A DNA stretch of 36,315 bases from Zhongshania aliphaticivorans (GTDB lineage: Bacteria; Pseudomonadota; Gammaproteobacteria; Pseudomonadales; Spongiibacteraceae): NCBI RefSeq assembly GCF_902705855.1, contig NZ_CACSIJ010000012.1:376357-412671 (forward strand). Reading direction: 5' to 3'. The position numbers were made by a program, and so were the translations under genes. This document shows, one piece after another, positions 5,214 through 36,294 of this stretch. Every line of letters starts with the position of its first letter. Position 1 is the first letter of the stretch. Under the pieces are notes generated by a model. It was given only the letters and a program-made list of their open reading frames with translations. It did no database searches and was not told where the DNA came from.

Positions 5214-7815
5214 TTAGAACGTCACGTTTACGCTCAGCCAGAAGTTTCGCGATTTATCTTTATTGTTATAGTCATCGCTAAATTCCACTTCGCCATCAGC
5301 GTCTGCATCATAAATACCATCGCCGTTCACGTCGTTAAATCGCGTGGTGTAGCTGGTGAAATCCTGATCTAGCAAATTATTAATACGAGCATTTACGGTC
5401 ACAGATTCATTAATTTTAAATGCAGCACCTAGGTGAAATACTTCGTAGTCATCGTAATATAAATGTTCACCCAAAGTGCCCACGCCACGGTAGCGATCAG
5501 AGCGCGCTTCTAAGGTAAGAAAAACATTCATACGATCATTGTATTGCCAATCCAAGGTCGCATTGGCCATATTCTCAGCGGTATTAGTTAGAGGCTGGCC
5601 TTTATTAGCCCCGCTGGTTTGCTCGCTATCGGTGTAGGTATAGTTAGCACGCAGCACCAATGCAGGCGAAATATAATAGCGGCCAGCCTTGGATTTCAGC
5701 CTTATCAATATTAATGTTTTGCGCATAGCTGGTGTAATTCAATTGCTCATACGCACCTAGATTTGCACAAGGGCGCACGCCACCGGTCTGGGAGCAGGAC
5801 AAGTTTGTTTCACCACGGGTAATCTTGTCCTTAAACTCATTTTGAAAGAAGGTGATATTAAAATTATGACCACCTATTGGCGCCTCCCAATATGCAGCAA
5901 TCTCTGTGTTAATACTGGTTTCGGGTTTCAAGTCTGGGTTGCCCACAAAAGGACTCGTGCCCTGTCCACCGAAACCTGTAATACCGTCAAATAAATCAGT
6001 GGTTTTAGGCGTTTTATAGCCCGTGCTTACGCCGCCCTTTAGAGTCCAGCTGTCGTTCAATAAATACACGCTATACAGTCTTGGGCTGGTGTTACTACCA
6101 AATAGTTTATGATCGTCGTAGCGAATACCAGCGGTGACAGTGAGCGGGTCTATGAACGTCCAGTTATCTTCAACAAACAAAGAATACATAGTGAAATCTG
6201 ATACCACGCCGGCACCCGCGCCACCGCTTTCCATACCAAACACACCGTCGTCCAGCTCACCGTCAATATATTGGGTACCAACAACTAATAAATGATCACC
6301 GGCCATATCAGTAATGGGGATGTCTAATTTCGCATCGAAGGTATATTGGCGACTTTCCATTTCCCGCTTGGGCCGTGGTAAGAATTCCGCCGCCATAATG
6401 TCACGCCGCTCGCTTTCACTCAGACCGGCGTACGCGCCAGTGCCCTCAAAAATTTCCTTCTGTAAAAGGCGCTCGCTTGCCGTTAGTGGCAGTGTTCGGC
6501 CTTTATTAGCCGTTTCAATATAAGCAAGAGACACCGCGCTGCTACCAAAGCTCCAATCACCATCGTGACTTATTGACCATTGGTCGCGGGTAAATTCCTG
6601 ATCCTTTGCGTAACCAGCGCGAGGGCGACTAGAAAACAATTGATCGACACTGTCTACCGTTCCCAATGGGAAGCTGCCGTCTGCTGATGGCGTGTTATCG
6701 TAAACCTGCTCAGATACATCGTAATCAAACACCACCGATTGTTTGTCGTCTGGCGTCCAGCTCAATCTAAAGCCCAGGCTTTTATTGGTATTGTCTACCG
6801 TCTTGCCACCGCCGCCAAAGCCCAGCGAGCGAGTTTGTAAATTACCGGCGGGATCACGCACCGAAGCATATTCAGGATTAGATGCATCGCGGTCATACAC
6901 GCTGCCACGAACAGCAAGACCGAGGGTATTTGGAATTAGCGGCCCCTGCACATTAAAATCGAGGGTTGAATCTTCACCAAACTCATCACCTTCCTGAAAG
7001 CTTCGGCTAAAGCTAATAGCGCCACCCCAGGTGTCGGTGATTTTTTTAGTGATCACATTAATCACACCACCCAGCGCATCGGCGCCGTACAACGTTGAGG
7101 CTGGGCCACGAATAACCTCTACTCGCTCAATCGCGGCCAATGGCGGAATATGATTAAACTGATTACCACCAAAGTTATTGGGGTAAATATCGCCGTGGTT
7201 ATTCTGACGACGACCATCAATGAGGATCAGAGTGTAGTCTGCTCCCATCCCCCGCATGCTGATGGTGCCTTGCCCGGTTTTATCGCGTGTTTCGCCAATA
7301 TCGACCCCCTCAAGATCACGCACAACATCTAGCAATGTCGTATAAGGGCGAGACTCAATTTCTTCGCGGTTCACCACCGAAATACTGGCTGGTGCATCAG
7401 TAATTTTTTGTTCGAAGCCCGCGGCAGACACCACAACCTTCTTTAAAGTAATCAGTTCATTCTGAGGTGCCGCCTCAGCTTGCGGCGCTGACTGAATTAG
7501 AAAGCTGCCATTTGGCTGGGCCTCTGCCTCTAAACCAGTGCCAGCCAACAAAATCATGAGCGCTTGAGGAACAGTAAAGTCACCCTGCACCCCAAAACTA
7601 CTTTTACCACGGGTTAAACTCGCCGCAGCACTAAGGTGGATGCCCGCCTGCTGCGCGAAGTCAGTCAACGACTGCGACAAATCACCTTTAGGAACATTGT
7701 ACTGAGCCATAGCTTGGCTCTGTGGGCTAGGGGATTGAGCCGCAGCAAGAGGCGAGGCGACTAACGCTGAGGCAAAAACCAGCGGTATTGCGCTGCGGGC
7801 AAGGTCAAAGTTCAT
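5214..7815 (-). pseudogene. TonB-dependent siderophore receptor with N-terminal signalling domain (FecA/CirA-like), frameshifted
   Basis: The ATG at 7815 starts a protein with a signal peptide (to about residue 28), a STN/secretin-like signalling domain (about 38-110), a TonB box region and plug ('VEVIRGPASTLYGADALGGVINV'-type block near 235-255), then the beta-barrel. The barrel frame stops at 5644. The remaining barrel, ending in a proper outer-membrane C-terminus ('FWLSVNVTF'), continues in another frame to 5214. The break lies near 5681-5692, between 'DKAEIQG' and 'RYYISPALVL'. The STN domain and the fecR-fecI genes upstream mean the receptor signals ligand binding to the sigma factor. 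The ligand is likely a ferric siderophore, and the plug resembles catecholate receptors. A sequencing error is as likely as true inactivation, because no other damage is visible. Confidence 0.85.
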
Positions 7816-7905
7816 CAAACATGTGCTCCTATTTAGATGGCTTATATGGGTCTACTTCCTATCTACCGAACAAGCCAACCAAAAAGGGAACCAATTACGA
7901 AAAGT

Positions 7906-7919: not shown

Positions 7920-8912
7920 CTATTTATTTTTAGATCGAATATGAACCCACCAAGGAGTGGGCTTATCGATGCTGATATCCAAACTAGCAGCCAGCATTTC
8001 TAGCGCGACATCAGGCTCATCTAGCGGGAAAGAACCCATCACCCGCATTTGCGCCACCTCTGATTCAACATAAATATAACCAAATCGATAGCGCTCCAAC
8101 TGGCTTATCAAATCAACTAAAGGAATATCGTTGGCTAGCAAAACATGATTCACCCACGCCTGCCGCGCCGGATCAGCGCCGCGCAAGACACCCCACTTCC
8201 CTTTTGAGAATGCAATTTGCTCACCTGTCTCGATAATACGACTCAGCCCTTGACCAATATCTATCTCGACTCGCCCTTCAAAAACAGCTAGCACACTATG
8301 ACCACGTTCCTTTGCTACCGAGAAACGAGTACCCAATGCTCGCAAGCGGCCATGCGATGTTTCTACAATTAATGGGCGATTCGAATCCGCTGCAGTATCG
8401 ATAAATATATCGCCACTTAGTAAATGGATTAATCGCTGCTCAGTGGTGTAGTGCACATCCATATGACTGGAGGTATTCAACCACGCCTTGCTACCATCAC
8501 TTAAGGCGAGTTCTTTTATTTCGCCTTTGGCGCTAGCGTAGTCAGCAATTTGCAAATACGGCGACTCAGGCAGTGTGAGCCAAGCACCACTGCCGATGCC
8601 AACAAGCACCAACATGGTTTTCAATGTACGCCGCCTTGTTACGCGCCGCTCTTGCAAACTATGAAGTGTTTCACTGGCTGGGGCACGACTCCCTGTGTCG
8701 TCATTGCGTAATTGATCAAAGCGCTTTGCGACCGATTCAATGCGCGCCCATGCTTCGCCGTGAGCAGAACTAGCTGAAATCCAGCTCTGCCATTGCTGTT
8801 TAATATCCGAAGCAAGCGCCTCATCGGCAAGCGCAGCATACCAATCTGCAGCTTCCTTTAAGTGCTGCTTGCTGACTGCAGCCTGACAATGCCCCTTATC
8901 AACGTCATTCAT
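7920..8912 (-). CDS. fecR: FecR-family anti-sigma / sigma-regulator protein
   Basis: 330 residues with the FecR layout. The N-terminal cytoplasmic domain has the Trp-rich motif ('ADWYAALAD' ... 'WQSWISAS' ... 'AWARIE'). One TM helix lies near residues 97-115, followed by the FecR periplasmic domain ('LALSDGSKAWLN', 'LLSGDIFID', 'ALGTRFSV', 'VFEGRVEI'). The C-terminal region ('DIPLVDLISQLERY') contacts the receptor's signalling domain in known systems. It spans the inner membrane and passes the substrate-bound signal from the receptor to FecI. Its start overlaps the fecI stop by 4 bases. Confidence 0.92.
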   Translation of the reverse strand: MNDVDKGHCQAAVSKQHLKEAADWYAALADEALASDIKQQWQSWISASSAHGEAWARIESVAKRFDQLRNDDTGSRAPASETLHSLQERRVTRRRTLKTMLVLVGIGSGAWLTLPESPYLQIADYASAKGEIKELALSDGSKAWLNTSSHMDVHYTTEQRLIHLLSGDIFIDTAADSNRPLIVETSHGRLRALGTRFSVAKERGHSVLAVFEGRVEIDIGQGLSRIIETGEQIAFSKGKWGVLRGADPARQAWVNHVLLANDIPLVDLISQLERYRFGYIYVESEVAQMRVMGSFPLDEPDVALEMLAASLDISIDKPTPWWVHIRSKNK

Positions 8913-9442
8913 TTTATTAATTCGTCAGCCGAAGCAAGCTCGAAGACCGCGCATTCATACATAGCTCGAGCCATATACTTTTTTACCATACGCTCAGATA
9001 CGTCAAGACGTACCGCGATTTCCCTATACGTCAAACCATCGAGCTGAGAAAAAATAAATGCCTTCGCAACCTTTTGCGGTAAACAGCGCAGCATATGATT
9101 CACGTCAGACAGCGTTTCGAGAACAATCACCGTGTGCTCAGGAGACGGCGCAAACATCTCTGGCTTGGCGGCAATTGCGTCTAACCACGCCTGCTCAACC
9201 TCGCGCCGACGCCACAGGTCAATACATAATCCCTTGGCTACCGTCGTCAAATACGCCCGAGCCCCACCAGAGTTATCAAACTCCTTAGGACGAAGTAATA
9301 AACGTATGAAGGCATCCTGCGCCAAATCAGCAGCGTCTTCCGCACAGCCTAATCGCCGCTTCAATAAGGTAAACAGCCAACCATGATGATGGCTATATAA
9401 GGTATGAAGTTGCTCGCCGTGGGCGGAGCTAGGTGTGGTCAT
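8909..9442 (-). CDS. fecI: FecI-type ECF RNA polymerase sigma factor
   Basis: 177 residues from the ATG at 9442, which has a strong ribosome-binding site (GGAGGAGCG) directly before it. A GTG 21 bases further out would put that site inside the gene. Sigma region 2 is around 20-90 ('DAADLAQDAFIRLL' ... 'YLTTVAKGLCIDLWRRR') and region 4 around 120-165 ('LDGLTYREIAVRLDVSERMVKKYM'). ECF sigma factors of this group direct transcription of the linked outer-membrane receptor. Gene order fecI-fecR-receptor and the ATGA overlap with fecR are standard for iron-starvation sigma systems. Confidence 0.93.
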   Translation of the reverse strand: MTTPSSAHGEQLHTLYSHHHGWLFTLLKRRLGCAEDAADLAQDAFIRLLLRPKEFDNSGGARAYLTTVAKGLCIDLWRRREVEQAWLDAIAAKPEMFAPSPEHTVIVLETLSDVNHMLRCLPQKVAKAFIFSQLDGLTYREIAVRLDVSERMVKKYMARAMYECAVFELASADELIK

Positions 9443-9490
9443 CGCTCCTCCCTGTCTGAGCACATTAAGTTGGGCTTATTAAATTTCGCA

Positions 9491-29429: not shown

Positions 29430-30176
29430 CTACATAACAATAACTTTACCAGTCATCTTCTCGCCGTGAATAGCGCATATATAGGTATATTCGCCCGGCT
29501 TATCAAAGGTGTGAGTAAAGGTAGAATCGTGCTTAAGCCTTGGGCTACGGACGCTCCCCATCAAAATAATATGATTAGAACCATCATAGTTAGTCCATGT
29601 CACCGTGGTACCAGCTTTCACTGTCAGTACTGCAGGTGAAAATCGCATAAAATCGACAATCGAAACCGTATTCTCGGCCTGCTTGCCTGATGCAGCGGCA
29701 CTACCAATCACCTTAATAGGCGACCCCACCTTTTTAATACCGGCAGATTCAACACGTTTTACTGGCACCGGTGCCGATTGCTGCGTTGGCACTGAGGGAC
29801 CATGCAATGCGATGCCCGCACTCGCCGCCGCAGAGCTTGCGGAGCCTGCAACAGTAATAACACCTTTCATTGATGGGTGAAGACCGCACTGATATTTGTG
29901 AACACCGGGTGCAGAAAACTCTTGGCTGTAATCAGCCCCTTTAGCAAGACGAGGACTTTCTTTACCGTCAATTAAAATGGTGTGACTAGCGCCATCTAAG
30001 TTTTCCCAAACTACACTTTGACCCGGCTGAACGTCCACTGATTCAGGGCCAAACTTATAATTCTTAATTTCAACCTTTACACTTTCAGAAGCCGCCAGCA
30101 CATCTGATGATATTGCAGCCCCTAAAAACATGGTTAAAGCAGCAAGTAGGGTATAAAGACAATAATATTTCTTCAC
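29430..30176 (-). CDS. two-domain cupredoxin (amicyanin/plastocyanin-like), exported
   Basis: 248 residues from the GTG at 30176, which has the ribosome site GAAGGAG. An upstream TTG would add six residues lying within a duplicated ribosome site. A signal peptide ends near 'VLAAS' (about 28). Domain 1 (about 32-115) has copper ligands His65, Cys97, His100 and Met103, with the Cys-x2-His-x2-Met spacing of amicyanin. An Ala/Ser/Pro/Val-rich linker follows. Domain 2 (about 165-248) has His202, Cys234, His237 and Met241, with Cys-x2-His-x3-Met. Both type 1 sites look intact, so it may carry two electrons or pass one along. It is the last gene of a leftward operon with PepSY, FMN-binding, globin and DUF3034 genes. 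Confidence 0.9.
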   Translation of the reverse strand: MKKYYCLYTLLAALTMFLGAAISSDVLAASESVKVEIKNYKFGPESVDVQPGQSVVWENLDGASHTILIDGKESPRLAKGADYSQEFSAPGVHKYQCGLHPSMKGVITVAGSASSAAASAGIALHGPSVPTQQSAPVPVKRVESAGIKKVGSPIKVIGSAAASGKQAENTVSIVDFMRFSPAVLTVKAGTTVTWTNYDGSNHIILMGSVRSPRLKHDSTFTHTFDKPGEYTYICAIHGEKMTGKVIVM

Positions 30177-30224
30177 AGTAAAACTCCTTCGCAATAATAT
30201 TTCTTCACAGTAAAACTCCTTCGC
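30161..30224 (-). repeat. 32-bp perfect tandem duplication of the cupredoxin ribosome site and start
   Basis: The unit at 30161-30192 is repeated exactly at 30193-30224. Each copy holds GAAGGAG and a GTG start followed by the first five codons. The upstream copy (GTG at 30208) reads an 11-codon peptide, MKKYYCEGVLL, whose stop TGA overlaps the real GTG start in the pattern GTGA. Confidence 0.93.
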
Positions 30225-30254
30225 AATGCTCTTTTAACACCTTAAAAAAGCATT
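30225..30254 (-). terminator. intra-operon hairpin before the cupredoxin gene
   Basis: AATGCT-c-TTTTAA, loop CACC, TTAAAA-a-AGCATT: a 13-bp stem with a single mismatch. It lies 15 bases past the PepSY stop and just before the duplicated ribosome sites. It could be a partial terminator or a processing/stability element that sets cupredoxin level apart from the rest of the operon. Confidence 0.5.
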
Positions 30255-30269
30255 ACGATAAACGAGAAA

Positions 30270-31163
30270 TTATTTTTTCTGACGTGAATTCCGCATACGG
30301 TTAGTACGCCACGTCATCCAAACCCCAGATATCGATAGCAAAACCGCAGCAACACCTACCAAATTAATAAGAGTGGAGCCGAAGGATCCAAACAAACGCC
30401 CGCTGTGCAAGTCGATTAATACCTGCTCCAAAGCAACCGTTGGGTGCGCATAGGGCTCAACATCTGCCTTTGCGCCTTCTGATAAGGTTTCTAATGCCGA
30501 CCACCTTACTTGATCAGGCTTGTCGAACTCATTCCACGTGAGCCCGTCTTCGGTTATATAGGTATTCTCACCTTGCAATGCGAGATAAGACTCGCCACCC
30601 TGCTCGTATAAGCCTAAATTACGAATATGGCCTACCGGCAACATGAAGCCACTTTGCTCTTCAATTACCACCCCTTCGGTAGACAGCAGGGTCAATTTGT
30701 CATTAGTGGCAACATAGAGTGTTTCACCAAGACCGTTCTTTACATCCACAAACCCCAAGGGCGAAGGTATATGCTGTTCCAATGCAATATCATCTAAAAC
30801 GGTATTTTCTGTGGTAGTGACCAGCCAATGCTCGCCCGAGCGATAACCGTTCTCGGGGACCTCAGCGTGAAGCCCATATAAAGACATTAACGCTACCGAA
30901 TTAACTCGAATCGCATCCAGACCCATGCTGACACTTTGATTTAACAAAACACCACTAAATCCAAGCCAGCCCATAAAAATAAATGCAAACAATCCTATAC
31001 GCTGATGCCATTTCCGCAACAGCATCGACACATTCATTTTGGGTTTACCTGCCGACGGTTTAAGGGTATTAACAACCGCCTTACGCTTCACTGTGGAACC
31101 AACAGGCGTCGCGGTCTCAGGCCCACGTACATCAGCCGCACGGAGCGCATTTTGATCACGCAT
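30270..31163 (-). CDS. PepSY-associated TM domain protein
   Basis: 297 residues. After a basic, disordered N-terminus of about 48 residues comes 'LLRKWHQRIGLFAFIFMGWL', the hallmark opening of PepSY-associated TM proteins. A first TM lies about 55-77, a periplasmic region follows with 'LDDIALEQHIPSPLGF', then 'IDLHSGRLFG' (about 250-259) and a last TM (about 263-286). The His residues in the two TM edges ('KWHQR', 'DLHSG') are the kind that can bind haem or help pass electrons across the membrane, as in FMN-linked PepSY reductases. It has a strong ribosome site (AGGAGGTACT) and is 21 bases after the FMN-binding gene. Confidence 0.87.
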   Translation of the reverse strand: MRDQNALRAADVRGPETATPVGSTVKRKAVVNTLKPSAGKPKMNVSMLLRKWHQRIGLFAFIFMGWLGFSGVLLNQSVSMGLDAIRVNSVALMSLYGLHAEVPENGYRSGEHWLVTTTENTVLDDIALEQHIPSPLGFVDVKNGLGETLYVATNDKLTLLSTEGVVIEEQSGFMLPVGHIRNLGLYEQGGESYLALQGENTYITEDGLTWNEFDKPDQVRWSALETLSEGAKADVEPYAHPTVALEQVLIDLHSGRLFGSFGSTLINLVGVAAVLLSISGVWMTWRTNRMRNSRQKK

Positions 31164-31184
31164 AGTACCTCCTAGAAACTAATT

Positions 31185-31784
31185 TCATTTATTGCGCAAT
31201 GAATCCAGGGTGATCGCAGTACGCGCCATCCGTTTCATCATATTCACAGACAAGGTCGCGCCCGTGATATTATCTACCGGCTTATCTAAGCCATTTCCTG
31301 CTGCTTTCGAGCCATTAATTTGATTTAAAAACGATGGCTCCGCAACCTGCTCCCCTCGAGACTCTCGATAAACCAAAACTTTAGCTGAATCAACGACACC
31401 ATTATTGATAACAAAACCACTTGTGGTTGGTACATAGCCTTCTTTACCAATGTCATCAAATATCCATACCGTTCTTTCACCGTCTTCCCAATAGCGCACT
31501 CGCTGCTGTGGAAAGGACCGATTAAATACTGCTGCTATTTCACGCTGATCATTACTGTCAAGAATCAGCATCTTTGGTGCCGGAACATTGTTTTTAAATA
31601 CCTCCGCTAAAAACACCTCCGGGGTCTGGAAGGTTTTATAAATTTCAAATGCCTTTACTGTTGCAGCGCTAAACAAACACAAACCTAAAACAGCAAATAG
31701 CGCAATGAACTTGGATTTTGGGGCTGGTACTGCGGCATCTAAAACAGATGCCGCCCCGCCCGCTTTGTCAAATTGATAAAGCAT
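31185..31784 (-). CDS. exported FMN-binding domain protein (covalent flavin site)
   Basis: 199 residues. An N-terminal TM/signal anchor lies near 28-46, followed by a periplasmic domain. The C-terminal FMN-binding domain has the flavinylation motif 'DNITGATLS' (Thr174-Gly-Ala-Thr177), matching the [S/T]GA[S/T] site of NqrC/RnfG, where ApbE attaches FMN through Thr. A preceding 'GYVPTTSGFVINNGVVDSAKVL' (described in parts) is also family-like. No apbE gene is in the window, so a flavin transferase must come from elsewhere. It stands between globin and PepSY genes with gaps of 17 and 21 bases. Confidence 0.88.
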   Translation of the reverse strand: MLYQFDKAGGAASVLDAAVPAPKSKFIALFAVLGLCLFSAATVKAFEIYKTFQTPEVFLAEVFKNNVPAPKMLILDSNDQREIAAVFNRSFPQQRVRYWEDGERTVWIFDDIGKEGYVPTTSGFVINNGVVDSAKVLVYRESRGEQVAEPSFLNQINGSKAAGNGLDKPVDNITGATLSVNMMKRMARTAITLDSLRNK

Positions 31785-31801
31785 GCGTACTCCAAAATAT
31801 A

Positions 31802-32263
31802 TTAACGAGTTACAATCGCGTGTTTATAAGGAGCCAATCCTGCTATGAGCTGATTACACGCTTCATAAGTCAATTGAATCCGCTCACAGGAATTATAAGC
31901 AGCTTCAACTACCGCATTAAATTGAGTCAGAGTAATACCCAAATCTGCATGCGCCGCCGCCATACTCGCCCCCTGATACTCGACATCACCGCCAAGTACC
32001 AACTGAACCAACTGCGTATTTAAATATATCTGCCTCTCGATATTACCGAACTCACGAAACACGTGGTTAATACGATTGTCTAGCATAATGTAATAGAAAA
32101 GACCCTCGACCCAGTTCCGCACCCCCTCAGGACCACCAAACTGTTCAACCGCATCACTGTCGATTGGAGGATAGGTCCCCGTTTTACCCGTCTGGGAAAA
32201 ACTCGGTGACGCAGCCACACACAACATAAAAGTTATCGCAATAGTACGAAATAGTTGTTTCAT
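31802..32263 (-). CDS. exported group I truncated haemoglobin
   Basis: 153 residues. A signal peptide ends near 'SFSQ' (about 24). The globin domain follows as a 2-on-2 fold: 'FGGPEGVRNWVEGLFYYIMLD' (42-62, quoted in part), Phe/Tyr56-58 near position B10, 'QLVLGG' (87-92), and the proximal haem ligand His105 (F8) in 'AAAHADLGIT', matching the 'HxGxGIT' block of group I trHbs. Group I members bind O2 and NO and some act as NO dioxygenases with an electron donor. A Sec signal is unusual for this family, since most are cytosolic. Operon partners are flavin and PepSY proteins that could reduce it. The ribosome site is AGGAGA. Confidence 0.88.
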   Translation of the reverse strand: MKQLFRTIAITFMLCVAASPSFSQTGKTGTYPPIDSDAVEQFGGPEGVRNWVEGLFYYIMLDNRINHVFREFGNIERQIYLNTQLVQLVLGGDVEYQGASMAAAHADLGITLTQFNAVVEAAYNSCERIQLTYEACNQLIAGLAPYKHAIVTR

Positions 32264-32302
32264 AATTCTCTCCTGATATTCAAAAAGTATTTTTACTCAA
32301 CA

Positions 32303-33352
32303 TTAGAAGCTGGCTTGCAACGACAAATAAAAACCATGCTGGTCAGGAGTAAGCGTAATATTACCTAACATCGCATATGCCATGGTGATAGAGAGGTTTT
32401 TATTTGGAAAAAAGGCGACGAAAGCATCATACCAATCACTTTCATTCTGAGTTAGTGTTCCCGCCACGTTAGAAAGCCCCAAAGTTTCTAAAGTAGGTTG
32501 CAAGGATGTTAAATCTAAACCTGCAATTTCAACGCTTTGCCCATTTAGATTGTCACCATGCTTTGCCCACTCCACACCGATAACGGTATCTTTGCGAAGT
32601 AAATATGCCAAAGATATTTCTGGGCGAATTTCTTTATCACTGCCATCTGGACCACCAAAACCGACCAAACCAGTTTGGTTAGCAGCAGTGTATCTAGCAG
32701 TTATATTGATAAGCGTATTAATTGGGAAGAATATTTTTGTCGCTGATATGTATGCCTCCCAATCCTTCGTTTTGTCTGCTCCAAGGGTTGTCAACAATTC
32801 ATCATTCTTGTTGGTCTTATAAAACGCACCAACTGCGACCTGGGGAATAAAATTATCAGAATCGTAAATCGCCTCACCAAACACACGAACTTTTGCGCCA
32901 ATTACTTCCATATCAATTGTGGTATTAAAGGGCTCTATACCGGTACTAATAGGTAGGCCAGCCACAGAGTCAGTTAATCCACCCACCGTGTCAAAAACAA
33001 GACCTAATGTATCAAATGTCGAACCCGTTGTTAGTGAACTAGATGTGTAAGACAGCTCAAATCTATCCCAAAAACCAACCGCCGCACCCACAGAGTGCAA
33101 GGTATAGTTCGCCAACGGCGCGTAAGTATAGTGAAGATCTCCGTTAATCCCCTCTTTAGTTGCGTAGCCGGTAATTGTTGCCCAAGGTGTAATACCGCCA
33201 CCACCAGCACCATCGATCATGCTAACACCGCCGGTAGCCAACACCTTACCTGAGTCAAATAAGTCTCCATGAGATATACTACTCGCGAGCATTGCTACGA
33301 ATAACGCCGCACCTTTACTCAAAGGAAACTTGTTTCTTTTTGCTTCTTCCAT
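32303..33352 (-). CDS. DUF3034 family outer-membrane protein
   Basis: 349 residues from the ATG at 33352 (ribosome site TAGGAGC). A start 30 bases further out would disrupt the signal peptide (about 12-30 in the chosen frame, ending near 'ISHGD'). 'LATGGVSMIDGAGGGGITPWA' (about 37-57, in part) and 'TYAPLANYTLHSVGAAVG' are characteristic of DUF3034. The rest is beta-rich with a C-terminal 'GFYLSLQASF', so it is likely an outer-membrane barrel. Its function is unknown. It is first in the operon before globin, FMN-binding, PepSY and cupredoxin genes, which suggests a channel or anchor for that redox system. Confidence 0.85.
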   Translation of the reverse strand: MEEAKRNKFPLSKGAALFVAMLASSISHGDLFDSGKVLATGGVSMIDGAGGGGITPWATITGYATKEGINGDLHYTYAPLANYTLHSVGAAVGFWDRFELSYTSSSLTTGSTFDTLGLVFDTVGGLTDSVAGLPISTGIEPFNTTIDMEVIGAKVRVFGEAIYDSDNFIPQVAVGAFYKTNKNDELLTTLGADKTKDWEAYISATKIFFPINTLINITARYTAANQTGLVGFGGPDGSDKEIRPEISLAYLLRKDTVIGVEWAKHGDNLNGQSVEIAGLDLTSLQPTLETLGLSNVAGTLTQNESDWYDAFVAFFPNKNLSITMAYAMLGNITLTPDQHGFYLSLQASF

Positions 33353-34175
33353 TTTGATGCTCCTAATCAATAGACAAACCACAATGCATAAATAAATGCC
33401 CCGCGTTCTCGCGAACCTTCTCTGTTCTTAAATTGCCAATCGCAAAGTTGTTTAAACTTAAAAAACTCAAGCAACCTATCTAGCAACTCAAAACACGAAA
33501 TCCGTCTTTTTAAGGGTGCATTACACAACTAGCAACGGGTGTGCCATATATGAAAATCTGAACAAAGAGAGTTATGCAGAAAATATCGAGGCGCGCATAA
33601 TGTGCATAAACAAACACCGACACACGACAAAAATGCGCGATTTATGGGCGAAAAATGGAGGGGTATGTCAATTTAGTTACATAATGGAACCAGTAAATCT
33701 GCAATATGAATAAATACAGTGCACAAAAAATAATTTATCCCGCCACCGCAAAAATCATCAATTTTATAGCTGCACACTTATGTAGCCACATCATTCAATA
33801 CAATAATAAGTAGATTCGCACCAAGACAGAGCAAGCCATGAAGACTAGCAATAAACAAAATTCCATCGGCGACTAAAAGGTTAGATAATAAATAATATTG
33901 GTCACTTACAAAGCCAACATCGCCGCCAATTAATACCCACCTATCAATTACCGGCACATCCTGTAAAAAAATTACCAACATGGTGCCAAATTAATACAAT
34001 AGCACCACAACAAATCGCTTGATTACGCACAGCTTTTAACCACACGCACAATAGCAATGCATAAGATGCGATTACTGCAATAGAATTACTTACATTTGAT
34101 CTTAAATATGACAAATTTTATTTATTTTTATGAAATTTATTACTTATTAGACATATTAAAAACAATATTCTTGCT
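33353..34175. other. A/T-rich intergenic region without supported genes (about 820 bp)
   Basis: This region lies between the divergent DUF3034 operon and the sigma-54 unit. Frames at 33516-33713 (+) and 33778-33981 (-) have no family signs and no good ribosome sites. It may hold the promoter of the redox operon near 33353-33500, upstream activator sites for the sigma-54 promoter nearer 34030-34150, or a small RNA. I see no clear operator or terminator. Confidence 0.6.
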
Positions 34176-34191
34176 TGGCACCCTAATTGCA
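34176..34191 (+). promoter_or_regulatory. sigma-54 (RpoN) promoter
   Basis: TGGCACCCTAATTGCA agrees with the -24/-12 consensus TGGCAC-N5-TTGCA, with GG at 34177-34178 and GC at 34189-34190 exactly 10 bases apart. It lies about 60 bases upstream of the start codon at 34251, leaving room for a short leader. No other site in the window fits this well. Confidence 0.85.
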
Positions 34192-34250: not shown

Positions 34251-34694
34251 ATGAAACCATTAAATGCATTATTACTCAGCACTGCACTCACAGTGGCAAG
34301 TCACGCACACTCTCAAGCCGATTTAGCCAGCCTACCTGCCGGCTTGCTCGGAGGTATACTTCCGGGAGTACTTGACCTAACCAATCAAGCACTCCCGTTA
34401 GTAAATGGTCTTCTAAGTAACGATCTCGTTGGCGGCTTGGTGGGCGATTTGGTTCTTCCCCTTACCAGCAACCTATTAGATCCAGTATTAGGGGGCACGT
34501 TGCTAGGCCTTGATTCATCACTACCCCTTGTGAATGGACTTATAAGTAACGATCTCGTTAACGGCTTAGTAGGTAGCGTAGTTTTCCCTCTTACCAGCGG
34601 CTTGCTCGACCCTGTTTTGAACGGTGTATTGCCTATCGTTAATACTGCTGTAATTCCTCTAGTCGGCGGAGTGGTCTCTGGAGGCGTTCTCTAG
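34251..34694 (+). CDS. secreted Leu/Val/Gly-rich repeat protein
   Basis: 147 residues from the ATG at 34251, which follows TGGAGTCAAA. A signal peptide ends near 'SHAHSQA' (about 23). The mature protein is almost free of charge (a few Asp, no Lys or Arg) and rich in Leu, Val, Gly and Pro. It contains two near-identical 35-residue repeats (48-82 and 91-125), opening 'LPLVNGL' and closing 'LLDPVL', plus partial copies before and after ('LPAGLLGGILPGVLD', 'LPIVNTAVIPLV'). I recognise no family. Such composition suits a self-assembling, interfacial or outer-surface protein. It has its own sigma-54 promoter and terminator, so it is a single-gene unit and probably well expressed. Confidence 0.82.
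   Translation: MKPLNALLLSTALTVASHAHSQADLASLPAGLLGGILPGVLDLTNQALPLVNGLLSNDLVGGLVGDLVLPLTSNLLDPVLGGTLLGLDSSLPLVNGLISNDLVNGLVGSVVFPLTSGLLDPVLNGVLPIVNTAVIPLVGGVVSGGVL
34392..34625 (+). repeat. two 105-bp diverged coding repeats, period 129 bp
   Basis: 34392-34496 and 34521-34625 encode the two 35-residue repeats. The proteins differ at about 7 positions, but the DNA differs at many third positions. The duplication is therefore old and the repeat is kept by selection at the protein level. Confidence 0.85.
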
Positions 34695-34810: not shown

Positions 34811-35788
34811 CTAAGGCACATAGCTGATAGGGTAATTACCATAAACAAATACCGGCACCGCCTTACTATCAAACTTCATCTGCTTAACGCGTTGAACCAG
34901 CTTATTCTTTAACTCGGGATTAAAAAAGCTAGACGACACAATAGTACAATCACTCACACTGCCATCCGGCTGAATCGTTAAGGCCACCACCACCGTCCCC
35001 GCGCCAATCGTTGAGTCACTTCTCGCCGCGCGATTAAATATGGCATAAAAAGCACTTTTGCTGCGATCAAAGGCTAATTGAATCTCCTCTAAACTACGAG
35101 TCTTCTGCCCGCCGCCGCTGCCACCTTCTGCCACCGCGACCTTTGGTTTACCCGAAGACACAGCCACTTTTTGAGTACTATGTTTACTTAAGGCAAGCTT
35201 ATTCGCATCATCGCTAATATTCTCACCATCAATAGCACCTACTTCACTGCCCCGCGTATTGGCACTCATCAAATTAGACGAAGGTGACGCCACATCATCT
35301 ACAACACTACCTCGATCCCGCAGCGCCTTTACAGACGCTAGAGATCGCGTGTCGGTGTCTCGCAATATTGCCAGCTGCTCACTAAAGGCCATTACACCAC
35401 TGCTCGCGGCGACCTTTTTTGCCGCTGCGGTATCTCGCTGCACATTTTTTGGCGATGACGCCGGTGGCTCAATGGCTTTTACCGGCTCTGGAATTATTTG
35501 CTTAGGCACCTCAACAGCCTTGATAGGCTCGGGCTTGGTATCTGGAATGTCTGGCGATTTGGCTTTCGGCTTTTCTAATACCGCCGGAGGCAGTATCTCT
35601 AGGTAATATTCCTCCTCGATTTCCTTTAATTCCTCTAGGGGTTCTATCACCCAAAAAGGTAAAACAATAAAAAAGAATAGCGTTATGGCTAGGACATTGG
35701 CCAATATTTGGCGGAATCGCCTATCGGCATCCTGATGAATTCCCCAATTGTCGAATCCCAGCTGTGTATTATTAAAGCCAACATTCAT
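34811..35788 (-). CDS. TonB-like energy transducer with AgmX/PglI C-terminal domain
   Basis: 325 residues. One TM helix (about 27-46) lies near the N-terminus. It is followed by an acidic then Pro/Lys/Glu-rich stretch (about 50-112) such as TonB uses to span the periplasm, a Ser/Ala-rich linker, and a C-terminal domain (about 228-325) with 'SAFYAIFNRAARSD', 'VVALTIQPDGSVSDCTIV' and 'VQRVKQMKF', as in AgmX/PglI C-terminal domains related to TonB. Its start overlaps the ExbD stop (ATGA), and its ribosome site AAGGAG lies inside exbD. It probably couples inner-membrane proton flow to an outer-membrane or periplasmic process. The partner is not visible. Confidence 0.87.
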   Translation of the reverse strand: MNVGFNNTQLGFDNWGIHQDADRRFRQILANVLAITLFFFIVLPFWVIEPLEELKEIEEEYYLEILPPAVLEKPKAKSPDIPDTKPEPIKAVEVPKQIIPEPVKAIEPPASSPKNVQRDTAAAKKVAASSGVMAFSEQLAILRDTDTRSLASVKALRDRGSVVDDVASPSSNLMSANTRGSEVGAIDGENISDDANKLALSKHSTQKVAVSSGKPKVAVAEGGSGGGQKTRSLEEIQLAFDRSKSAFYAIFNRAARSDSTIGAGTVVVALTIQPDGSVSDCTIVSSSFFNPELKNKLVQRVKQMKFDSKAVPVFVYGNYPISYVP

Positions 35789-36294
35789 AGACTAGCTCCT
35801 TGCTCTAGCGCCCTAACCGCTAATGACACTTTGCCATACTTTGCATCTACGCAGGTCGCCAATACTTTCTTTAGCAGTTCATACGGTGTTTTATAGTCTG
35901 CAACAATATTGACATCGAGTATTTCAGGCTCACCGTCAATTAGCGGCTTTTCATCATCTTTCTGCCTGCTACTCAATACCTGCGCCAAACTTTGCAAAGT
36001 TCGCTCATTTACAAGCAGCGCCTCATCCACACTCATAACCACATGATCATCTACCAATATACTGTGATCACTTATGGCTACAGCGACCGTCCGTTTAGCC
36101 TTATCTTTAGATACTGAATCAGGCAGCTTTAGGTTCTGATACTCGGGAATAACCTCTACGACCAAGGCATTAACAAGTAAATAAAATACTAATATGGCAA
36201 ATATATCGATCAAGGAAACGACATTAATACTGACCTGTCTTTTCGACTGCTTAATTTTGCGAATAATGCGTCTTTCGCTTGCTGAATAACTCAC
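35785..36294 (-). CDS. ExbD/TolR-family biopolymer transport protein
   Basis: 169 residues from a GTG at 36294. A basic N-terminus is followed by one TM helix (about 25-47) with the conserved proton-carrying Asp in 'SLIDIFAILVFYLLV' and then a periplasmic domain. It is longer than typical ExbD (about 140) because of an insertion with 'SRQKDDEKPLIDGEPE'. It forms the stator of a proton channel with an ExbB/TolQ protein, whose gene should lie upstream beyond the window. It overlaps both neighbours by 4 bases, so it is in a tightly coupled operon. Confidence 0.9.
   Translation of the reverse strand: MSYSASERRIIRKIKQSKRQVSINVVSLIDIFAILVFYLLVNALVVEVIPEYQNLKLPDSVSKDKAKRTVAVAISDHSILVDDHVVMSVDEALLVNERTLQSLAQVLSSRQKDDEKPLIDGEPEILDVNIVADYKTPYELLKKVLATCVDAKYGKVSLAVRALEQGASL

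Follow-up and report, generated by a model that had tools for sequence, protein, structure and literature searches.

A five-gene operon of Zhongshania aliphaticivorans with a predicted exported truncated globin, an FMN-binding protein and a PepSY protein, and its possible link to nitrate assimilation

The window analysed here, a stretch of 36,315 nucleotides (nt) from Zhongshania aliphaticivorans (contig NZ_CACSIJ010000012.1), holds five closely spaced genes, which encode a DUF3034 protein, a putatively exported truncated haemoglobin (trHb), a flavin mononucleotide (FMN)-binding protein, a PepSY membrane protein and a two-domain cupredoxin. The operon is real, coherent and rare, and has a testable link to nitrogen, for which the strongest clue is a sigma-54 type site upstream of the DUF3034 gene that the original prediction from this DNA had not considered. 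We put at roughly an even chance that the operon is an envelope haem–flavin module of the nitrate-assimilation (nas) regulon, in which the globin would turn over a nitrogen oxide, most likely nitric oxide (NO). The link to the regulon is drawn from the sigma-54 sites, the leader structures and the neighbouring nas genes. The features are as follows.

32303–33352, minus strand: gene of the DUF3034 protein (PF11231, E 9.8e-83)
31802–32263, minus strand: globin gene, encoding an exported group I-like truncated globin (phmmer and an AlphaFold2 (AF2) model; sub-threshold in Pfam)
31185–31784, minus strand: FMN_bind gene (PF04205, 26.7 bits against a cut-off of 22)
30270–31163, minus strand: gene of the PepSY_TM membrane protein (PF03929, 47.9 bits against a cut-off of 28.8)
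29430–30179, minus strand: cupredoxin gene, encoding a predicted exported protein with two cupredoxin domains (PF13473 and PF00127, two stretches each)
30160–30223, minus strand: 32-nt direct duplication, which holds the ribosome-binding site (RBS) and GTG start of the cupredoxin gene
33531–33546, minus strand: sigma-54 type site of the −24/−12 kind (TGGCACACCCGTTGCT), upstream of the DUF3034 gene

All five reading frames are open and run in the same leftward direction, and the genes are of the kinds that had been predicted, as borne out by the domain matches and by the short gaps, which measure 39, 17, 21 and 75–90 nt from the DUF3034 gene to the cupredoxin gene. The last value depends on the cupredoxin start, by inspection probably the GTG at 30179, which lies inside the duplication that repeats RBS and start together; by eye, the first copy runs into a stop. 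The order DUF3034–globin–FMN–PepSY is kept in 18 of 18 distinct genomes that carry a DUF3034 gene of this type (hereafter FMN-type), with loci L120, L123 and L125 taken to be the same genomes as G009, G016 and G002 and counted once, and this constancy rules out a chance neighbourhood of genes. Twelve of the genomes are Zhongshania, and the other six are from Stenotrophobium, Panacagrimonas, Solimonas and metagenome-assembled genomes (MAGs) of Nevskia, of Salinisphaerales and of the Gammaproteobacteria; we call these six loci Nevskiales-like, as most presumably belong to the Nevskiales.

As a query, the globin matched 57 of 145 relatives, 12 of them at ≥75% identity, all Zhongshania and the genome under study included, and genes for DUF3034, FMN_bind and PepSY stand beside the globin in all 12 loci. 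The FMN-type operon is rare, because a profile of FMN-type globins at E 1e-20 found only the genome under study among 369 drawn evenly across the class. The co-occurrence expected for all five genes thus holds for four of them, in a set that is rare (1/369). The copper protein, also proposed as a partner, lies downstream in 10 of the 12 Zhongshania operons, and elsewhere an OmpA–cupredoxin fusion relative lies within the locus, in all six non-Zhongshania cases (domains scanned in the L128 copy). Co-occurrence with apbE, proposed as a test, is seen outside Zhongshania, where apbE lies downstream of PepSY in five of the six loci, directly in L121, L122 and L124 and after one small open reading frame (ORF) in L126 (an EF-hand protein) and L128. 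The genome under study has two ApbE genes, both away from the operon.

The sigma-54 sites were sought upstream of genes with the pattern TGGC[AC][CT]-N5-TTGC[ATG], and all 18 FMN-type genomes have one ahead of DUF3034. When all 112 DUF3034 ORFs are covered with this pattern in a 750-nt frame, it is present in 15 of 15 FMN-type ORFs and in none of the 97 others (random, 1.4%), and a narrower frame gives 14 of 15 against 0 of 97 (random, 0.6%); an earlier text-anchored test, which left out 50 of the 112 ORFs, gave 14/14 against 1/48. The same type of site precedes nirB and a NarK-type gene in the genome under study. In related loci such sites stand before nirB/NarK, before the gene of a repetitive protein and before that of an Alginate_exp-type porin, as well as before a NasT-like gene (L121, L122 and L127), before the OmpA–cupredoxin gene (L124 and L126) and before a 685-residue gene that precedes a TPR gene (G004). 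The window has two copies of the strict pattern, against 0.17 expected, one before DUF3034 and the other before a divergent gene; a sigma-70 scan of the window found 7 sites against 10.8 in shuffles.

34176–34191, plus strand: second sigma-54 type site (TGGCACCCTAATTGCA), before the divergent gene
34251–34694, plus strand: divergent gene of a small exported repetitive protein (start by inspection; ORF from 34197)

Locus L121 holds a gene that resembles this repetitive protein in composition, and its product, compared by phmmer with all ORFs including those of the window, matched only itself.

The leaders of the six Nevskiales-like loci all carry an intrinsic terminator (fold below −25 kcal/mol). 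In four of them (L121, L122, L124 and L128) a hairpin with an A1/G4 hexaloop lies at most 110 nt before the terminator, an arrangement found in 1.4% of random 250-nt stretches, and in L127 the hexaloop hairpin stands 151 nt before it. This resembles the layout of ANTAR targets, A1/G4 hexaloop hairpins with an overlapping terminator, as given in passages of PMC3369931. A scan of the same six loci at Rfam gathering thresholds gave no match. In the window, a general scan returned one weak terminator-like hairpin in the leader of the operon, at 33415–33400, among 9 found against 5.3 in shuffles.

The neighbouring genes point in the same direction. Eight of the 15 FMN-type loci encode at least one of NirB, a NarK-type protein, a PP2C-kinase, a NasS-like (NMT1_2) and a NasT-like (ANTAR) protein, compared with 2 of 94 among the other DUF3034 loci; in these counts some queries were drawn from the same loci and so match themselves. 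Five of the six Nevskiales-like loci have a nas-type gene, NasT-like in L121, L122, L124 and L127, and NarK-type together with NirB in L128; an NsrR-like Rrf2 gene is also near the L121 operon (114 bits against a cut-off of 182). In Zhongshania, nirB lies within 15 kb of the operon in 9 of the 12 genomes that bear it, and G004 and G015 have the gene run nirB, NarK-type, kinase, DUF3034, globin, FMN, PepSY. NasS- and NasT-like genes of the genome under study are on another contig.

The globin falls under the curated cut-off of PF01152 (15.2 against 21 bits), and a PF01152 scan of its own genome does not list it and returns only a different trHb of cytosolic type. Its identity rests on a phmmer comparison with solved structures, which leads to group I truncated haemoglobins (E 8.9e-8), on the fold of the AF2 model and on an invariant proximal histidine. 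The model (pLDDT 79) has 2/2 globin helices and matches 24 chains of the Protein Data Bank at E ≤0.001 and rmsd 1.1–1.9, with HbN and the Tetrahymena trHb at the top; the TM-scores of the top matches, by target length, are 0.79–0.93. The proximal histidine F8 (H105) is kept in all 50 rows of an alignment of exported globins, which joins 49 of the 74 globin ORFs of DUF3034 loci to the globin of the window, and in 18 of 18 FMN-type genomes (16 by pattern, 2 read from the alignment). Together with the constant gene order, this upholds the central proposal of the original prediction, a tight cluster in which an exported haem-type globin is encoded alongside a PepSY protein and a carrier that can be flavinylated. 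On the distal side the residues are F56 (B10), Q78 (E7) and N82 (E11), with Phe, Gln and Asn at these positions in 10 of 10 aligned FMN-type globins; B10 is not Tyr in any of the 50 exported globins aligned. The protein also has a cysteine pair, C126 and C136.

Export was called by eye from the N-termini of the families and by a plain hydropathy scan with a threshold. In the scan, the N-termini of the FMN protein and the cupredoxin passed this threshold and those of DUF3034 and the globin did not; by eye, the DUF3034 protein has an N-terminal signal. The AF2 model of DUF3034 is beta-rich (pLDDT 76), and its Foldseek matches are the barrels FapF, NanC, KdgM and OmpG at a TM-score by query length of about 0.4, so that the protein is a predicted outer-membrane beta barrel whose likeness to any single solved barrel is weak. 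The FMN_bind protein has one N-terminal hydrophobic segment and an intact flavinylation site, DNITGATLS, in which the TGAT noted earlier can be read; the covalent FMN site [ST]GAT[LVY]S recurs in 18 of 18 FMN-type genomes (16 by pattern, 2 read from the alignment). A profile of this protein found no match among solved structures. The PepSY profile matches a single solved chain, 7abw, in its C-terminal part over about 40 residues. H53 and H253 of the PepSY protein are invariant in 16 sequences, and are candidate haem ligands. The cupredoxin scores below the NCBIfam equivalog cut-offs for amicyanin (71 against 110.2 bits), plastocyanin (61.1 against 87.85) and pseudoazurin (29.5 against 109.85).

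In the mechanism that we infer for a nitrate-regulon module, sigma-54 with a presumed nitrogen activator would start transcription upstream of DUF3034, and in the Nevskiales-like members a leader terminator would gate the operon; a NasT-like ANTAR protein would probably read it in response to nitrate or nitrite. The PepSY protein would take electrons from the membrane or cytosol and pass them to the covalent FMN of the periplasmic FMN_bind protein, a path that fits the invariant PepSY histidines and the conserved flavin site; haem carriage and electron transfer to extracytosolic flavins are attributed to PepSY-like proteins (passages of PMC8238504 and PMC10979944). The flavin may then keep the haem of the exported globin ferrous, and the globin may turn over a small nitrogen oxide outside the cytoplasm, most likely NO, so that NO arising from the use of nitrate or nitrite would be cleared or fed back into the nitrate pool. 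The cupredoxin would be a side carrier or copper-dependent partner, and DUF3034 an outer-membrane barrel. Two things favour NO as the ligand, the nas context and a precedent, the narK-bjgb-flp-nasC genes of Bradyrhizobium, where a NasT-controlled nas operon encodes a cytosolic haemoglobin and a flavoprotein (passages of PMC4724949). Both systems link a haemoglobin and a flavin protein to nitrate-assimilation genes; Bjgb is a single-domain globin of the Hmp/Vgb kind and Flp takes its electrons from NAD(P)H, both in the cytosol (same passages), whereas the Zhongshania operon, judged by its sequences, would combine a truncated globin with envelope parts.

Several observations weigh against this reading. 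In group I globins a Tyr at B10 supports O2 binding and NO dioxygenation, and the HbN-type NO dioxygenase has a distal Tyr B10 with Gln at E7/E11. In the FMN-type globins Phe replaces this Tyr in 10 of 10 sequences, so that the canonical distal site is missing and NO dioxygenation is weakened; of the NO dioxygenase output first proposed, the direction towards nitrogen oxides is upheld by regulation and neighbours, and the enzymatic site is not (B10 Phe, E11 Asn). The looser membership of the cupredoxin likewise weakens the original prediction. The genome under study has no NirK over the cut-off, which leaves no clear periplasmic source of NO, and its second trHb, the cytosolic-type one on contig 14 (L053:4429–5349) with a divergent NsrR-like Rrf2 gene (132 bits against a cut-off of 182), could already clear NO. 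Each of the 18 Zhongshania genomes carries NirB together with an ANTAR match (above the cut-off in 15) and only 12 have the operon, so that the operon is dispensable for nitrate assimilation in the genus. Of 20 FMN loci that lack DUF3034, 4 have nas-type neighbours too. As to regulation, NtrC-like dyads were not above chance in a control, the four Zhongshania leaders scanned, that of the window included, showed neither a T-run terminator nor the hexaloop, and L126 has a terminator with no hexaloop before it and no nas gene in the locus.

The operon belongs to a wider family, in which a DUF3034 alignment scan of a species-genome collection confirmed at least 568 relatives. The best 80 of these loci all have DUF3034, and among them 71 have a globin ORF, 42 a cupredoxin, 33 a GGDEF-EAL protein and 9 (three Zhongshania and the six Nevskiales-like) both FMN_bind and PepSY. 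The flavin part would thus be an added partner, since DUF3034 and the exported globin mostly occur without it. Outside Zhongshania the exported globin usually adjoins DUF3034, often with a single-domain cupredoxin and a protein of about 780 residues, which is dCache_3-HAMP-GGDEF-EAL in the only member domain-scanned. A quick tree sets the FMN-type DUF3034 proteins apart on one side of a branch (15 of 112 rows, SH-aLRT 100), and the sister of this clade is unsure because its long branch meets that of L167 and one more, as flagged by a tree warning. Regulation of the whole DUF3034 family with the nas genes is ruled out by the 0/97 sigma-54 sites and by nas-type neighbours in 2 of 94 loci. Loci L032–L067 and L129–L199 show DUF3034 beside an exported globin to be widespread in Alpha-, Beta- and Gammaproteobacteria; these globins have their own cysteine pair and are lipoprotein-like in several families, and cupredoxin and GGDEF-EAL genes are often near. 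Possibly the DUF3034–exported globin–GGDEF-EAL cassette provides a periplasmic haem input to c-di-GMP signalling. Compared with this cassette, the FMN-type operon likewise sets DUF3034 next to an exported globin, often with a cupredoxin nearby; it differs in that FMN_bind and PepSY stand where the cassette has GGDEF-EAL, in the sigma-54 site and in a different cysteine pair.

Such loci bear on the reading, which we think improbable, that the exported globin senses NO, CO or O2, with the flavin doing no more than set its redox state. The pairing of DUF3034 with an exported globin in 71 of the best 80 loci, the GGDEF-EAL ORFs in 33 of these 80, the dCache-HAMP-GGDEF-EAL architecture of the scanned member and the lack of Tyr B10 in all exported globins aligned would suit a sensor, but GGDEF-EAL is absent among the neighbours shown for the nine FMN-type loci and the operon has no other output protein. 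Haemoglobins of plants and cyanobacteria can reduce hydroxylamine and nitrite, and a reductive salvage, in which the flavin-reduced ferrous globin would reduce nitrite or hydroxylamine in the periplasm and so feed or protect assimilation, is the least unlikely of the alternatives, though still one we doubt. It would account for the dedicated reductant branch of FMN, PepSY and ApbE (the last in 5 of 6 Nevskiales-like loci), for the nitrate-regulon context and for a distal pocket poor in O2-stabilizing residues; on the other hand, the reduction of nitrite to NO would be harmful, and the cytosolic nitrite reductase NirB is present.

The relatives of the FMN protein, which occur in 67 of 293 genomes of the order, lead to a further alternative, a FoxB/PepSY-type module for the reduction of ferric iron or siderophores with globin and cupredoxin as metal- or haem-handling parts. 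Among 20 fetched regions that have such a relative, DUF3034 or globin was found in none and PepSY in 17, and the six porin-like ORFs next to FMN genes that were domain-scanned are porins of the Porin_O_P/Porin_4 kind. The match to 7abw, and the tie of PepSY clusters to iron uptake described in parts of PMC8238504, agree with this too. We nevertheless regard it as the least probable reading, as a siderophore receptor is absent from the five genes of the operon, and its promoter type and gene neighbours match nitrate assimilation. It is also improbable, about as much so as sensing, that the sigma-54- and nas-linked island forms an envelope-spanning conduit for electrons, of haem, flavin and copper, by which a nitrogen compound is converted at the outer membrane or beyond it, with nitrate as nitrogen source. 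Its parts would be PepSY, FMN, the exported globin, the OmpA-anchored or two-domain cupredoxin, DUF3034, ExbBD–TonB–TPR and the repetitive exported protein, and it would amount to a new kind of extracytoplasmic nitrogen-assimilation machine.

Among known systems, the operon agrees with the PepSY-like flavinylated systems, defined in the cited part of the flavinylation survey (PMC8238504) as a PF03929/PF16357 protein clustered with an FMN-binding or ApbE gene: FMN_bind and PepSY_TM are in one cluster, with ApbE in 5 of 6 Nevskiales-like loci. The systems of the survey instead have DUF2271/DUF4198, VIT1 or TonB receptors and a tie to iron, and a term search of its main text returned no globin, hemoglobin, cupredoxin or DUF3034. 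The operon globin shares with group I trHbs such as HbN and the Tetrahymena protein the fold, the proximal His and the CD1 Phe, and differs in its predicted export, in B10 Phe and E11 Asn and in its own cysteine pair. A truncated haemoglobin of cable bacteria, likened here by description, is likewise reported to be periplasmic and to be likely to reduce O2, and the passage on it names no flavin/PepSY operon (PMC12093952). In the titles and passages retrieved on DUF3034, on PepSY, FMN or ApbE with globin, on periplasmic globins and on nitrate assimilation, the operon is not described; in that material the keyword DUF3034 gave a single mention, in a retron figure legend, and truncated hemoglobin and PepSY came together as separate rows of a regulon table.

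How exported globins stay reduced is, to our knowledge, an open question, on which a globin that shares an operon with a flavinylation-type electron path bears. If the nitrogen link is true, haemoglobin-based handling of nitrogen oxides, known from the cytosol, moves to the envelope, and the nitrogen-regulon signature makes the function of the operon directly testable. The arrangement further suggests that PepSY–FMN modules, mainly tied to iron in the survey as far as cited (PMC8238504), can be recruited by nitrate assimilation.

In locus L103, FMN_bind is paired with a LolB–MPAB/Lcp (rubber-oxygenase-type) fusion, and a nitrate-type ABC transporter is encoded tail to tail beside it. The same pairing is seen in L105, L107 and L109, which have relatives of this fusion, and in L211; NasS-like genes are also in L105 and L107, and L211 has a NarK-like MFS gene nearby (301 bits against a cut-off of 311.7). 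The pair is possibly a second haem–flavin pair beside nitrate genes.

At the right edge of the window are two genes of a TPR-ExbB-ExbD-ExbD-TonB cluster.

34811–35788, minus strand: gene of a TonB/AgmX C-terminal domain protein
35785–36294, minus strand: gene of an ExbD/TolR-like protein

The whole cluster (34811–36294 of the window and L213:241–5630) sits between the operon and nasA-nirB in the genome under study, and relatives of its TPR genes are present in three Nevskiales-like loci (L121, L124 and L126). At 5214–7818 of the window, a TonB-receptor-like frame is, by eye, seemingly split into two overlapping minus-strand ORFs, and it adjoins a FecI/FecR-like pair at 7920–9463, likewise read by eye.

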